Assembly: GCA_001599595.1 (NCBI GenBank)
Contig: BCHH01000010.1
Span: forward strand, 475,662-539,661
Source: Beverwykella pulmonaria
Taxonomy: Eukaryota; Ascomycota; Dothideomycetes; Pleosporales; Melanommataceae
DNA: 64,000 nt
Direction of reading: 5' to 3'
Shown one piece after another: positions 17,176 to 64,000 of this stretch. Position 1 is the stretch's first letter. The number at the start of each line of letters is the position of its first letter. The notes beneath the pieces are model-generated. The model saw only the letters and a list, made by a program, of their open reading frames with translations, was not told the DNA's origin and ran no database searches. A program made the translations under genes and the position numbers.

Positions 17176-18425
17176 GCACAACACGCCCGCGCCGGGATCT
17201 GATCGACTGCTTCACGCCTTTTACATCACACCTTCGACTTCTATCCAATATTACGCTACAGTCTACGTTGCGTTTGAAGCATCTTCAGTCTGACCTACCT
17301 AGGCAGTACCGTGTTCTCCGACTTCAACAACTAGTATACTCTTCACACTTTTACGAAACTACATATTAGAGGCATCGTTCATATCCGACCACAATTTCTG
17401 CCCCACCTTTCTCTCGGTTCAGATGCGAATCAAACCGCAGCGAGTAATGATTAATTTAGCGACGGCGTTTTGGAGGCTTACTTGTTGGCTTTTTACGCCA
17501 TATACCATATACATCTCCTTCTCGGCGAAAATACGTCAAGGCGTTGGGTTTCTTTTGTCCATATCGGGTGTCTGTGCTTCACATGTACATGCTTTATTAT
17601 ACATATGATATGAGAATAAGGGAATGGATATCACGATATCGATGGTCTGAGACCTCAGCTATGCATTTATATACCTGCCTACGAGGTATGATAGCAACCG
17701 ACATAACAATGTGTTTTGTAGCAATGCGAATGTCCCTATGGATATTGTATCTGCAAATAATTACCATGTTACACAAACGTGACTCAACCGTGCTCTTGCA
17801 CATGTGCAAGAGTTTGCTTTTTTGGTCTATTCATAACTCTTGGGAGTTTCGTACTCACCACTTTCCATTGTTTAATAAGCATAGTTAACGAGTTGAATTG
17901 AGGCATATGAACGGCAAAGGGAACGGATATACGTTGGCAAGTTGAATTTGCTAATCACGTTTTGGTGTATGATGCTTGCCTAATAATCCATTCTGCAAGG
18001 TCGTTTCCCAGCAAGCATTTGTTTTCCTGCTCGCAAACCTACGTACAGTGCTAAAGCATGGCTTCTCGGATAGAACAACCGGAATGCATCAAGATATCTG
18101 CCCTAAATCTAGACCTAGTCGCAGAGCGAGGGGAATGAATCATGTCCTTCTGTCCTGCTGTATTTAACTAAGAGTCGTGTTGCTACTAATTGTAGAATCT
18201 ACGATGGTGTTTTTGATGCCTGAGCCCGAGTCCTGAGCTGGATAATTAATTAGCGTACATTCCTCCCTGTGCCACGCACACACAAAAATCAAAGTTAGAT
18301 CCGGCGCCCTTCTACGAATACGCCGCCCTTCCACCAAGCCGGGTAAGGACGGTTGTCTATACCTGATCTGTGTGCTGTATATAGTTATTTTAATTCTCAA
18401 ACCACTCCATCGATCACAAAAATTG
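17176..18425. other. A/T-rich intergenic region
   Basis: 1.25 kb between the glycogen-binding gene and the tRNA gene. It is visibly richer in A/T than the genes to the left. Short open frames at 17423-17608, 17544-17888 and 17976-18167 have no splice signals or recognisable domains. No repeat or RNA gene other than the following tRNA is seen. Confidence 0.4.
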
Positions 18426-18562
18426 GGGCCGGTAACTCAGTGGTAGAGTGGAAGACTGCAGTTCTCATTTCAGCTTTCTTTAAGTCACCGGTTCGAGTAA
18501 GTCATTACTTGAGAGACACGCAACATGACATGTTCTAATTGAAGCAGCTCCGGTTCGGCCCT
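18426..18562 (+). tRNA. tRNA-Cys(GCA) with two introns, one in the T loop
   Basis: Acceptor strand 18426-18432 (GGGCCGG) pairs with 18555-18561 (TCGGCCC, one G-T pair); position 73 is T, as in cysteine tRNAs. D arm 18435-18449 has stem ACTC/GAGT and loop AGTGGTA. Anticodon stem 18451-18455 (GAAGA) is followed by CTGCAG with anticodon GCA at 18458-18460. A 14-base segment, 18462-18475, sits at the canonical 37/38 intron position; then T and TCTTT close the arm. Variable loop 18482-18486. T stem ACCGG 18487-18491 and CCGGT 18550-18554 pair perfectly, but the loop is split by 18497-18547, 51 bases starting GTAAGT and ending CAG with CTAAT nine bases from the end. Removing both segments gives a 72-base tRNA with loop TTCGACT. 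It may be active or a pseudogene; the exact fit argues for a real second intron. Confidence 0.8.
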
Positions 18563-18568
18563 GTCAAA

Positions 18569-18575
18569 TTTTTTT
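18569..18575 (+). terminator. RNA polymerase III T7 terminator
   Basis: Seven T residues begin seven bases after the tRNA discriminator base. This is the normal position and length for a polymerase III stop, and supports the tRNA gene being a transcription unit. Confidence 0.75.
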
Positions 18576-18846: not shown

Positions 18847-20711
18847 CTACCTTAGTGAAATGCCTTCATCCGCGCCACCATCCGCAGCCCCTTCATCGTC
18901 AAATCCCGCTTCCTCGCCGTCGCCATCATCTTCACCAAGTGCAAAGCGCATAAACTTTTCGTTCTTCGCCTCCGCTGTTCACATGTTAACACCCAGTCTC
19001 GGGGTTGTTGAAGAATCAGGATGGAAATAAAATCGGAAGACTTACTTCCCCACTCGACGACCTGTCCATCTTGAACCTCGCAGTCTTTAAGCACCGTCTT
19101 ATCGTCGCCCTTGGACGGGCCTCCCTCAATCTTGCACCGTCGACCTAGAATGCAGTCTGTGAGTTGTGCGTTGGGTCCCACTTCGACATTATCCATCAAT
19201 AAGCATCGTAGCAGCCGTGCGCCCTCGCTGATCTTGCAATTCGCACCGATAACCGACTCTTTGATGTTGCATTTCTCCTCTACGATGACGTTGTCGGCGA
19301 GCAGCGAGTTCTCGGCTTCGACACGGCACTTTTTAGGAATCATGCGCTTATGTGCTACCTTTGCTTGGTGCGCGAAGGGAGACGCAGCGTCTTTGCCTAC
19401 TTCTTCGATGGAAGGGAGTTTGGCGAGGCGGAGAGATACGGTGAGGAGGAGGTGGGCGGTGTCGACTCGCCGGATGAGGGGCTCGGTCGGCGCTGAGGGC
19501 TGGACGTATGCTAATATGGGAGGAACTGTCAGTTTCGCTTTGGAGGCGATTGATTTGGCGGCGTGCTGTGGGAGATTAGAATGTGCGACTCTTGACGCGA
19601 GCAGCGTTGGCGCTGCCTCAGCGCTGTCTTGCCCGCCGACCCATGTTGTGCTGTATCTTGACACATCGATTTCGTCCTCGACCACCTGGGATCCAGAGTC
19701 GCTTTCTGAGCTCTCTGGGCCATGCAAAATCTCTCGGAGACCAAGTTTGTCGCCCAGTCCGTGTTGCCATCCTGCCTTTGCCCACCAACCCAGCACTTCC
19801 TCGCTAACGCTTTCGAATGCTTCATTCTTCTTGATCATCTCGATGACCCAGTACGGGAAGAAGTAGATGTGAGCATCGCGGTGTGTACTGAGCATCTTTA
19901 TGCGGCCGTGCTTTCGAATGAGTGAATGCCGAATGGGGAGACACTTCTTCGACTCTGTGATGTCGTTCAAGGTATCCGTTGGCACGGAGTAGACGAGGTT
20001 CGATATGTTGAGTCGCAACGAGTCGGCAGGCGGGGGCACAATCGGAGTCGGAAGCGGTGTTGTTGCGATGAAGTCGGTCTCTTCACCCTTTACACTGCCT
20101 TCACTTTTCGTTTGGTACCACACTCCGAGCCCCCCCCTCCGGCCCAGTCTCTCACCGCCCACGCCTAGTGGCAGCTTCCCCGCACTCCTCATGCCCCCGC
20201 TGGCTGCCCCGAGTCCCGCTTCCTGGACCATCCACGCGTCGAGCAATGCTGTGCCGTCCAATTCGCAGACGATGTCGCAAGGGAGGACGATAAAGTCGCC
20301 TGTTATGGCCGATTGAACCTCTGGTAGTCGAAAGAGCTCGCCGGTTCCTGTCTCGTGCGTCAGGTCCTTCGGCGCAAGGACGGTAGGCTTCGGCGCGGGC
20401 AGCGACGTGAGGTGAGGATTCTGTGACATGGCGGCTTCTATGACCTTGAGCGATTCGGGAGGCGTTACGATTGTGATGTCTGTTCATCCGTCCTGTTAGC
20501 GTACGAAGCGCACCGCAAAGTGGGTTCCCATGCCTGTGACTCCCATGCGGTAGCACCATTCCAGCGGATACCAGACCATGGGCCGGTTCGCAATCGGCAG
20601 GAGGGCTTTCGGCGTGTCTTGCGGCGCGGAAGTAAAGGTGCTGAAGGAAGCCCCAGGCCCGCACAGGATGAGCGCCTGGAAACCCGGCGTGGGCAAGGTA
20701 GCGTGAGGCAT
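18847..20711 (-). CDS. gcd1: Translation initiation factor eIF2B subunit gamma
   Basis: CDS complement(join(18847..18974,19046..20479,20534..20711)), 579 residues, like yeast Gcd1 (578). eIF2B is the guanine-nucleotide exchange factor for eIF2, the target of stress control of translation. Residues 1-150 are the nucleotidyl-transferase-like fold: FQALILCGPG, then KALLPIANRPMVWYPLEW, and FIVLPCDIVCELDG. Residues about 420-530 are the left-handed beta helix with repeated VIVEEKCNIKES / CLLMDNVEVGPNA turns. The end TEAKNEKFMRF plus an acidic tail is typical of the gamma subunit. The first intron (20480-20533, 54 bases) must start with GC (AG|GCATGG) to keep the conserved VTDITIV segment in frame; the second (18975-19045, 71 bases) is GTAAGT...ACAG. 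The gene is divergent from the Pex22-like gene. Confidence 0.9.
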
Positions 20712-60522: not shown

Positions 60523-61440
60523 GAGCCTTCATTTCTTCTATTCCTTCGCAAAGATCCTTGATGGATCCTAGCACTACAGCAGAGATTTTTCTTCGTTCCC
60601 TACGGGGCCCCAATTATAGCATTACCTTTCACTGTGAATTTTTCTCTTCTTCGTTCTTCTATCCTTCTTGTCCATAGTAGGGCTGGAAGTATACTAGAAC
60701 CAACAACATGTGTTAGCAACGATTATCGCATATACCCAGGATGGTTTGGGATTTTGATTGGCGTTTTTTGTGTGATCTTTGACTGCATGATTAGCATGTA
60801 GTAGTTAAAAAACGAAAATGACATAGCACTGCATTTGAAGCTCTTACCACTCCATAATACTTATGAGTGGCCTTATTAGGCCTTAGAACCTTGCTATAAT
60901 GCTAATAAGTTATTATGAGCCTTGTGCCTGCTGTCGCGCACAATTTCATGCAAGGCTGCTCTCCTAGTTGATTAAACCAACTAATTACTAATTTTGGCTA
61001 GTATATAACGACCCAAGCATACGTAATCATCAAGGTGTAATTTATTTATGATGACCATTAACGCTGTGGCTGTGCGGGGTCTTGGCGATCGGGCCGACTT
61101 CAGCCCCACTGAGGTGTTCGTCCACTTCTCAAAGCATATTTAACTTAGTCCAGTCGCTTGCAAGCTGCCATCTGCTAAAGCCTGCAACCACAGCTCAGCC
61201 TTACCGCGCCACACTGTGGGCCAGTTCACAGCACTCTTGCAATGTCTCTCTGTTAGATGCGGTTCTTCGGTATGGCTCAACATTCTCTTCTCCTGCATGC
61301 TCGCTAACGTCAATAGGTAGGACTGATATTATCAACGGCTGAGCGAGTTGCTGTGCTCGTCTCTTCAGTTAGGCTGCCGCGTTTAAACTCGGCTGAGATC
61401 CATTCCTACCACTTGCCCCCGTCCAGCTCCATGCGAAGCA
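60523..61440. other. Upstream region of the HET receptor gene
   Basis: 918 bases. The left part is the GH55 3' region. From about 60780 the DNA is A/T rich; TATATAA at 61002-61008 is a possible core promoter. An 86-codon frame at 61082-61342 has no recognised domain. A 5' leader intron could lie here, but no donor-acceptor pair stood out. Confidence 0.4.
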
Positions 61441-64000
61441 ATGCGTCTTTTGCGACGCTGCGACACTGGCGACTTCAGCCTTACTCAGTTTGGCGACAAG
61501 GACATACCTCCCTATGCGATACTTTCGCATACATGGGGAGCGGACACTGAGGAGGTCACTTTCGAAGACTTGATGAATGGCACTGGCAAGGATAAGCCTG
61601 GCTTTGTGAAGATCCGGTTCTGTGGAGAACAGGCAAGACAAGATGGCTTGAACTACTTTTGGGTTGACACTTGTTGTATTGACAAGATAAACAAAGCCGA
61701 ACTCTCGCAGTCTATCAACTCTATGTTTCGCTGGTATCGCAATGCAACTCGATGCTACGTCTATCTGTCGGATGTCTCAACAGCTAAGCGGAAAATGAAC
61801 GGTGACACCTCTGAGTGGGAGTTTAGCTTTCAGAGAAGCCGATGGTTTACCCGGGGGTGGACACTGCAAGAGCTTCTTGCCCCTCGTTCAGTCGAGTTCT
61901 TTTCCCGGCAACGCAAGCGAATTGGTGACAAATGTTCGCTAAGGCAACAAATACACGAGATCACCGCTATTCCCGAGCCAGCGCTTCAAGGAGCCCTGCT
62001 GTCTCAGTTTAGCGTTAACGATCGGTTGTCATGGATAGAGCACCGCCAGACTAAGCTTGAAGAAGATAAAGCGTATTCATTGCTGGGCATTTTCGGCGTC
62101 TACATACCACCCATCTACGGCGAAGGGATAGGAGGAGCGTTCAGACGACTCCAAGACGAGATTGGCAAGCTAGAGAAGTGTACCCAAGACTTACACATCA
62201 CCGATCCCCGGCGTGACAAAGCGCGTATTGAGGACACCAAGGGGGGACTACTGGAGGACTCGTACTACTGGATCCTCGACAACACCGACTTCCAGCGATG
62301 GCGGGACGATCCACAGAGCCGACTCCTCTGGATCAAGGGTGATCCTGGCAAAGGCAAAACAATGCTGCTCTGCGGTATCATCAACGAGCTGAACAAGTCG
62401 ATGGCCGAGACAGCCCTTCTATCGTACTTCTTCTGTCAGGCCACGGACTTACGAATCAACAGCGCGACAGCCGTGTTGCGGGGTCTGCTGTTTTTGCTTG
62501 TCAACCAGCAGCCATCGCTCGTCTCGCATATACGGAAGAAGCACGATCAGACAGGAAAAGTGCTCTTCGAGGATACTAATGCCTGGGTTGCAATATCTGA
62601 GATTTTTACCGATATCCTGCAAGATCCGAGCTTAAGCAGCACGTTCTTTTTCGTTGATGCGCTCGACGAATGTGTAAAGGACCTAGAGAAACTATTAGCC
62701 TTCATCGTGCAAAAGTCGTCTCTATCTTCTTGTGTTAAGTGGATACTTACGAGTCGCAACGACGCCAACATCGAGCAAAAACTACGGCTTGACGATTCCG
62801 GAACGAGGCTGAGTCTTGAGCTTAAAGAAAATGCTTGGCAAGTATCCCGTGCCGTTGACGCTTACATCGACTATCGCCTTCTGGAATTGGAAAAGATTCA
62901 TCATGACCGATTACTTCAATCATTAGTCCGGGAGAAATTACAACAGAAGGCTAATGGCACTTTCCTCTGGGTGTCACTCATTATGAAAGAGTTGAAGGAT
63001 GTAATGGCCTGGGAGATACTGCAGGTCCTTGAAGAAGTTCCGACAGAGTTGAAAGATGTATATTGGCGAATGGTGGAGCAGATTAAACAATTGAAGCGTC
63101 GCTATCCAGATTTATGCCGACAAGTTCTCTCTACCGTTATCGCTACGTACCGTCCTCTGCATCTGCAGGAACTCTGCGTTCTAGCAGACTTACCTAACCA
63201 AGGTACTGACGTGAAAGAGACAACTGCGACGATTGTAAAGATGTGTGGCTCGTTCCTCACAATTCGAGACGACAACGTCTATATTATCCACCAATCAGCT
63301 AAGGACTTTTTATCTAAGGAAGCGAACCTTGATGTCTTTCCTTGCGGGATTGGAGAAGTTTATTATTCCATCTTCTCAAAATCCCTCAAGGTCATGTCCA
63401 AGACGCTCCAACGAGACATGTACAGCTTACGTGCGTTAGGGTATCCTGCAGGGCAGGTGGAACAGCCAGACCCAGACCCTTTAGCGGCGTCACGTTATTC
63501 ATGTATCTACTGGATTGACCACCTCTGTGACTGGAGTCTTAGCTCTTCCGCGAATTCCTTAGTTGACCTGCAAGATAGAGGCGCTGTTCACGAATTTCTA
63601 AGGAAGAAATACCTCTACTGGCTTGAAGCTCTTAGCCTGTGTAAGAGCATATCAAAAGGCGTAGTCTCAATGGCGAAACTTGAGGCTATAGTCCAGGTAA
63701 TGCTTAAACTAGTAATTCTATTCATGCAGAATATATTCTAACATAAACTAGGGAAGAGTAAATACCCCTGCATTAATTGAACTTATTCAAGATGCGCGCC
63801 GATTCATTATGTCTCACAAGCGGCCAATAGAGAACAGTCCTCTTCAAGTATATGCGTCCGCACTCGTATTCAGCCCAACTCGCAGCCTGATAAGAGGTCT
63901 TTTTAAGAGGGAAGAGCTAGACTTGATTACAATAAAGCCGGCTATGCAAGATAAATGGAGCCCCTGCCTCCAGACGCTCGAGGGCCATAGCGGTCCCGTC
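61441..64000 (+). CDS. HET-NACHT-WD40 receptor, cut by window end
   Basis: CDS join(61441..63696,63752..>64000), 835 residues visible. HET domain at about residues 1-240: PYAILSHTWG, then FWVDTCCIDK, RWFTRGWTLQELLAP and AYSLLGIFGVYIPPIYGEG, the full set of HET motifs. NACHT ATPase follows: Walker A GDPGKGKT at 300-307 and Walker B FFFVDALDE at 402-410, then the NACHT helical part with VYIIHQSAKDFL. The 55-base intron (GTAATG...CTAAC...CTAG) precedes the second exon, which ends in LQTLEGHSGPV, the opening of the first WD40 repeat; the repeat array lies beyond the window. Such proteins (HET-E, HET-D, HNWD family) act as fungal NLR-type sensors; HET triggers cell death in heterokaryon incompatibility. 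Up to the window edge the gene has no stops, so it appears functional. Confidence 0.93.

Follow-up and report, generated by a model that had tools for sequence, protein, structure and literature searches.

Spliceosomal-type introns in nuclear transfer RNA genes of the fungus Beverwykella pulmonaria

The stretch of Beverwykella pulmonaria DNA analysed here (the window: 64,000 nucleotides, G000:C10:475662-539661, from an assembly of 45.6 Mb in 31 contigs) carries a transfer RNA (tRNA) gene, tRNA-Cys(GCA), that is interrupted twice: by a short intron at the canonical position 37/38 and, inside the T loop, by a 51-nucleotide (nt) insert that begins and ends like an intron of a messenger RNA (mRNA) [Table 1]. 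The original prediction had placed the gene, both introns and the splice motifs of the insert, and our analysis reproduced all of these base for base. Removal of both introns leaves a 72-nt tRNA with an acceptor stem of 7/7 pairs, a D stem of 4/4 and, as had been claimed, the T stem ACCGG/CCGGT, the T loop TTCGACT and U73. ARAGORN recognises tRNA-Cys(gca) in the spliced form and makes no call on the unspliced gene, which is also missed by the Rfam tRNA model at its gathering score (25.9 bits, under the cut-off of 29). The combination of GTRNGY, CTRAY and AG arose in 2 of 200,000 shuffles of the insert.

Table 1. Features of the tRNA-Cys(GCA) gene and of its neighbourhood, in window coordinates
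Feature	Position	Strand	Description
TATATA box	18378..18383	+	Pol III-type upstream element, 48 nt 5' of the tRNA start
tRNA-Cys(GCA) gene, whole	18426-18562	+	two introns inside
Exon 1	18426..18461	+	acceptor 5' strand, D arm, anticodon-stem 5' strand, anticodon GCA, G37
14-nt intron	18462..18475	+	canonical position 37/38, tRNA-endonuclease type
Exon 2	18476..18496	+	anticodon-stem 3' strand, variable loop, T-stem 5' strand, T loop through A58 (TTCGA)
51-nt intron	18497..18547	+	spliceosomal-type, T loop between 58 and 59; GTAAGT ... CTAAT (18535-18539) ... CAG
Exon 3	18548..18562	+	T-loop CT, T-stem CCGGT, acceptor 3' strand TCGGCCC, discriminator U73
T7 run	18569..18575	+	Pol III terminator
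eIF2B-gamma intron	18975-19045		71 nt, GT-AG, placed with relatives' proteins
eIF2B-gamma intron	20480-20533		54 nt, GC-AG by reading of frame (relatives' proteins)
Open reading frame	61387-63741	+	HET, NACHT/NPHP3_N and winged-helix Pfam matches

The original prediction dealt with tRNA-Cys alone, but similar introns occur genome-wide, at other positions and in other isotypes. A whole-genome screen for B boxes followed at once by a 5' splice site (GGTTCRAGTRNGT) detected 30 sites, 12 of which are tRNA genes split between positions 58 and 59 (Cys, two Ala-AGC, two Arg-ACG, two Asp, Val-AAC, Pro-TGG, two Gly-GCC, and Ile-TAT). In each of them the insert is 47-55 nt long and ends in AG, and its removal restores a T stem of 5/5 and an acceptor stem of 7/7 pairs. 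The screen was limited to GTRNGT 5' sites and, at position 52, to bases other than C. Applied to 48 control sites where position 52 is A or T (WGTTCRAGTRNGT), it yielded 0 split tRNAs, and the viral and prokaryote loci taken as a negative control yielded none in 129 pattern occurrences among the matches listed. Twelve more introns were recovered independently of their own splice signals, through Rfam, an intact B box, or the 58/59 intron of the same gene. These lie in the acceptor stem at 6/7 (both Leu-AAG genes), in the D arm at 10/11 (Leu-CAG), 11/12 (Glu-CTC), 12/13 (Arg-ACG.2) and 15/16 (two Asp genes), in the variable arm (Ser-GCT.2), at 52/53 (His-GTG.2), and at 53/54 (His-GTG.1, Trp-CCA and Leu-TAG); Arg-ACG.2 and both Asp genes have a 58/59 intron too. 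Altogether, 24 GT-AG or GC-AG introns were found in 21 of the 51 tRNA genes recognised in a still incomplete inventory, and none of the 24 is at position 37/38. All intron boundaries were placed by hand to restore the tRNA fold. All 25 spliced forms given to ARAGORN (the 21 split genes and 4 without GT-AG introns, the 37/38 introns being removed as well) were called tRNA; from the 21 unspliced forms it called two, misidentifying the first and misplacing the 5' end of the second.

The 51 genes consist of 39 Rfam rows minus one that is unclear, 9 further T-loop genes and 4 B-box genes, and because the recognised set depends on the search patterns used, 21 of 51 (41%) is not a genome estimate. 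The Rfam tRNA family was rejected as a full inventory, given that 63 of 1174 candidates were scored and that Asp.3 and Glu-TTC.2 were missed and later found by their B box. Four of 12 unknown B-box sites were kept as tRNA, all with a 7/7 acceptor stem, and the other eight were dropped as non-tRNA, having no 7/7 acceptor partner upstream and, in the form searched for, no T stem with a GT-AG stretch inside it. Another candidate (L081), with 4/5 T-stem pairs, was dropped as ARAGORN found no tRNA in it. Genes for tRNA-Phe, tRNA-Tyr and elongator tRNA-Met did not turn up (two Met genes read as initiators) in searches none of which was aimed at them; introns may hide them from Rfam as well as from our patterns. 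A tRNA-like sequence on the minus strand at G000:C17:711695-711764 (L154, 31.1 bits) has, as we read it, T at 73, a poorly paired anticodon stem and an anticodon that would read GCG, and may be a copy of organellar origin or one more tRNA with a disruption.

Splice signals of one kind recur across the 24 introns. All but one are GT-AG, the exception being GC-AG, and the 5' sites are GTAAGT (8), GTGAGT (5), GTAAGC (3), GTACGT (2), GTAGGT (2), and GTATGT, GTCAGT, GTTAGT and GCAAGT (1 each), with CAG (13), TAG (7) or AAG (4) at the 3' end. A perfect CTRAY, with its branch A 9-13 nt from the 3' end, is present in 22 introns, compared with 7% of shuffled introns, and the lengths range from 47 to 72 nt (median 52). 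Canonical introns of nuclear tRNA genes, which lie at 37/38 and are cut by the tRNA endonuclease and joined by a ligase, are found alongside them in many genes (17 among the 25 genes tabulated), but they are 7-34 nt long and never GT-AG (0/17). Their abundance lends some weight to the idea that the endonuclease removes the inserts as ectopic tRNA introns, by cutting at a bulge-helix-bulge, and that their GT-AG ends are incidental, as do the endonuclease-type introns at noncanonical positions, sometimes several in a gene, that are described for archaea and red algae, including the tRNA genes of the red alga C. merolae disrupted at bulge-helix-bulge motifs (PMC8450103 and PMC3978253). The archaeal and red-algal introns resemble the present ones in their positions and multiplicity, but are recognised by the bulge-helix-bulge and the endonuclease rather than by GT, branch site and AG. 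Archaeal tRNA introns are not known to have GT-branch-AG signals, whereas here GT/GC...AG ends are found in 24/24 and CTRAY at a near-fixed spacing in 22/24, against no GT-AG among the 17 introns at 37/38, and removal of the inserts by the endonuclease is therefore very improbable. A crude test for a central helix of 4 pairs was non-discriminating, since it was positive in 0/24 of the inserts but also in just 1/17 of the 37/38 introns. By their ends, branch sites, lengths and restored products, the 24 introns are very probably spliceosomal introns of the U2 type.

Compared with mRNA introns of the same genome, the tRNA introns are alike in length and signals. The original prediction equated the length of the tRNA-Cys insert with that of the mRNA introns of the window, put at 48-62 nt; the 54-nt intron of the neighbouring eIF2B-gamma gene falls within that range, but the 71-nt one exceeds it, so 48-62 nt is not the full range. 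An earlier guess of a 61-nt GT-AG intron in eIF2B-gamma was replaced by the 54-nt GC-AG intron, which preserves the reading frame. Fifteen of 20 frame-supported mRNA intron candidates measure 45-61 nt, although this set was picked partly by motif and is illustrative only. A Pfam search of five further open reading frames matched no family, hence no intron was confirmed there. The GC-AG class is thus seen in eIF2B-gamma, by reading of frame, and in the tRNA gene Leu-TAG (L157: GCAAGT...TACTAAC...AAG).

The exons of the split genes are conserved to an extent that their introns are not. Exons are identical between Asp.1 and Asp.2 (72/72), Gly.1 and Gly.2 (71/71), and Ala.1 and Ala.2 (72/72, to which the intron-free Ala.3 is identical as well), and the mature sequences of Leu-AAG.1 and Leu-AAG.2 match at 81/82 positions. 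Two Ser-GCT copies (L035 and L026) are 80/81 identical, one with a 49-nt variable-arm intron and the other without it; ARAGORN misnames the split copy Leu-TAA. More diverged are Arg.1 and Arg.2 (61/72) and His.1 and His.2, which differ at 20 positions in 71. Introns of paralogues at shared positions align at 59-75% and the flanks at 43-60% (gaps counted), while any two tRNA introns have a median identity of 56% in gapped alignment. Pairwise alignment of the introns gave no clear sequence sharing beyond the duplicated Asp genes, which share both intron positions, with introns that are 71-75% similar, and which look like duplicates whose exons remained unchanged while their introns changed. In the comparisons Arg.1/.2, His.1/.2 and Asp.1/Asp.3, 10 acceptor or T-stem pairs have changed on both sides, one on one side, and none is broken; Leu-AAG.1/.2 shows no change in these pairs. 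The 3' partner of the changed pairs lies past the T-arm intron, save in Asp.3, which has no such intron. Paired changes across the T-arm intron are difficult to account for if the exons do not end up in a single tRNA.

These observations bear directly on whether the insertions have simply killed the genes, leaving other genes to serve the cell. Copies free of GT-AG introns do exist for Ala-AGC, Asp and Ser-GCT, and the inventory is incomplete for the rest, which speaks for such pseudogenes. Nevertheless, the decay of exons and pairing expected of tRNA pseudogenes was not seen, as three paralogue pairs keep identical exons beside diverged introns and flanks, and the changes spanning the intron position left no acceptor or T-stem pair broken in the four pairs compared. 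The near-constant length and splice signals of the inserts, together with the failure of the searches used to detect an intact gene for Cys, His, Trp, Gly-GCC or Pro-TGG, also argue against dead genes, an explanation to which we give hardly any credence. The version raised along with the original prediction, a pseudogene with a lucky insert, is very unlikely, given that the same splice signals recur and that exons are kept while introns diverge.

A second tRNA-Cys(GCA) gene, which might relieve the cell of any dependence on the split one and whose possible existence had been raised at the outset, was found neither by BLAST with the locus, nor by BLAST with the spliced form, nor by patterns running from the D arm to the anticodon; of the latter, one gave 3 matches and the other 28, and among the 28 the window gene alone had a D stem of 4/4. 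For Trp, BLAST with the spliced sequence matched the split gene only. The pattern GGTTCGANTCCC, which would match intact T arms with the same bases in His, Gly-GCC and Pro-TGG, occurs at 22 sites; none of these is an intact gene of the three, and the intron-free Ala-AGC was recovered among them as a positive control, as was Asp.3, which is free of GT-AG introns. Such copy searches can miss diverged genes, and the assembly may be incomplete.

The flanks of the split genes carry the signals of transcription by RNA polymerase III (Pol III). A downstream run of at least five T is present in 21/21 split genes, starting 4-30 nt past the gene, and TATAWW is found at -35 to -60 in 16/21 (fewer than 60 upstream bases being examined for two of the others, Leu-CAG and Leu-AAG.2), compared with 18/30 of the tRNA genes without GT-AG introns by a hand count. 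TTTT occurs in one of the 24 tRNA introns against 5.4 in shuffles, and a count this low is seen in 0.9% of shuffles in this post hoc test; such a shortage would follow from a need for Pol III to transcribe across the introns. TTTT occurs in 3/20 mRNA intron candidates, which is not clearly above the tRNA introns. Judging from its flanking elements, the tRNA-Cys(GCA) gene is probably transcribed by Pol III. Spliceosomal splicing normally acts on transcripts of RNA polymerase II (Pol II), and TATA boxes could serve either polymerase, so the tRNA genes might instead be read by Pol II in longer transcripts from which the introns are spliced and the tRNA is excised later. The T-runs in all 21 genes, the TATA boxes, positioned like those of tRNA genes free of GT-AG introns, and the scarcity of TTTT in the introns fit Pol III, and the U6 RNA of fission yeast is a Pol III product that contains an mRNA-type intron (PMC10484740); transcription by Pol II is accordingly unlikely in our estimate.

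The gene anatomy, the splice signals and their recurrence, the conservation of the exons and the paired changes make it very probable that the tRNA genes of this fungus carry functional spliceosomal introns, and the reading first proposed for the tRNA-Cys insert is thereby supported by 24 like introns in 21 genes. Some observations weigh against it. The Ala-AGC, Asp and Ser-GCT copies without GT-AG introns mean that not every split gene is needed. The 58/59 intron of Asp.1 and the 10/11 intron of Leu-CAG are without a perfect CTRAY, the two imperfect branch sites being TTAAC at 10 and CTTAC at 14 nt from the end. TTTT stands inside an exon of two Ala genes, where a run of four T evidently does no harm, and the comparison of TTTT counts is a post hoc one. 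Finally, the intron at 58/59 cuts the internal B box and splits off its last four bases in 12 genes. At 52/53 and 53/54 the introns end such that the B box is rebuilt in the DNA, with TTCGANTC after AG or GTTCGACTCC after AAG, and it may stay usable there. For yeast tRNA genes that have a TATA box upstream, transcription in vitro is possible in the absence of TFIIIC (PMC3978253), which suggests a way in which genes with a split B box might be read.

The following pathway is a proposal, in which the polymerase, the part played by the spliceosome, the sequence of the reactions and the reliance of the cell on them are all inferred. Pol III would make a precursor from the TATA box to the T-run, and the spliceosome would remove the GT-AG intron, branching at CTRAY, whereby the tRNA fold is restored. 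RNase P and RNase Z would trim the ends, CCA would be added, and the tRNA endonuclease and ligase would remove the 37/38 intron. At least for the introns in the acceptor stem, spliceosomal removal would have to precede end processing because the acceptor stem is split until then. It is quite likely that the spliceosome has become an obligatory machine of tRNA maturation in this lineage of the Pleosporales through many intron entries, repeatedly at 58/59, such that the tRNAs for Cys, His, Trp, Gly-GCC and Pro-TGG could be made only via the spliceosome, with the tRNA endonuclease as a second system on the same molecule.

Among the results listed by searches of the open-access literature, preprints not being covered, no description of nuclear tRNA genes with GT-AG introns was found, so earlier work elsewhere is possible; the nearest precedents for spliceosomal introns in nuclear tRNAs are the U6 small nuclear RNA (snRNA) and the 18S ribosomal RNA (rRNA). 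Introns of the mRNA type in U6 are known from more than one fungus. Works by Tani and Ohshima (1989, 1991) reportedly deal with the U6 intron of Schizosaccharomyces pombe. According to PMC10484740, the U6 RNA of this yeast, a Pol III transcript, has an mRNA-type intron whose origin is thought to be reverse splicing. Like the present tRNAs, U6 of S. pombe is a small structured Pol III RNA with such an intron, but it is one snRNA gene on which no second splicing pathway acts. U6 of the present genome (L074, G000:C3:4042637-4042737) is, unlike that of S. pombe, a single uninterrupted end-to-end Rfam match, the only match scored. Spliceosomal introns in 18S rRNA genes of ascomycetes are said to have been described by Cubero (2000) and Bhattacharya (2000), and they are treated in PMC11889510. 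They share with the tRNA introns a spliceosomal character within a structured non-coding RNA, but they reside in rRNA, a transcript of RNA polymerase I. Introner-like elements, by which spliceosomal introns are actively gained, in part in parallel, in the same fungal class, the Dothideomycetes, are described in PMC4457414, which makes no mention of tRNA; unlike these elements, the tRNA introns here are mostly unrelated to each other, as their median identity indicates.

The splicing of tRNA and that of mRNA are taught as separate pathways with separate substrates, which this genome would join, and if our interpretation is true, translation depends directly on the spliceosome. Such genes would offer a natural system for the study of how Pol III transcripts, lacking the carboxy-terminal domain and a normal cap, meet the spliceosome. 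They would also bear on how introns enter the same position of many tRNA genes and on the means by which Pol III deals with a B box in two pieces. In addition, standard tRNA finders can miss or misname genes of this kind, and the tRNA counts of related fungi may be wrong. For the window proteins GH125 and eIF2B-gamma, the best named relatives come from Melanomma pulvis-pyrius, at 85% and 89% identity respectively, and the next from other Pleosporales. Towards the end of the window, the open reading frame with HET, NACHT/NPHP3_N and winged-helix matches is an NLR of the heterokaryon-incompatibility type.
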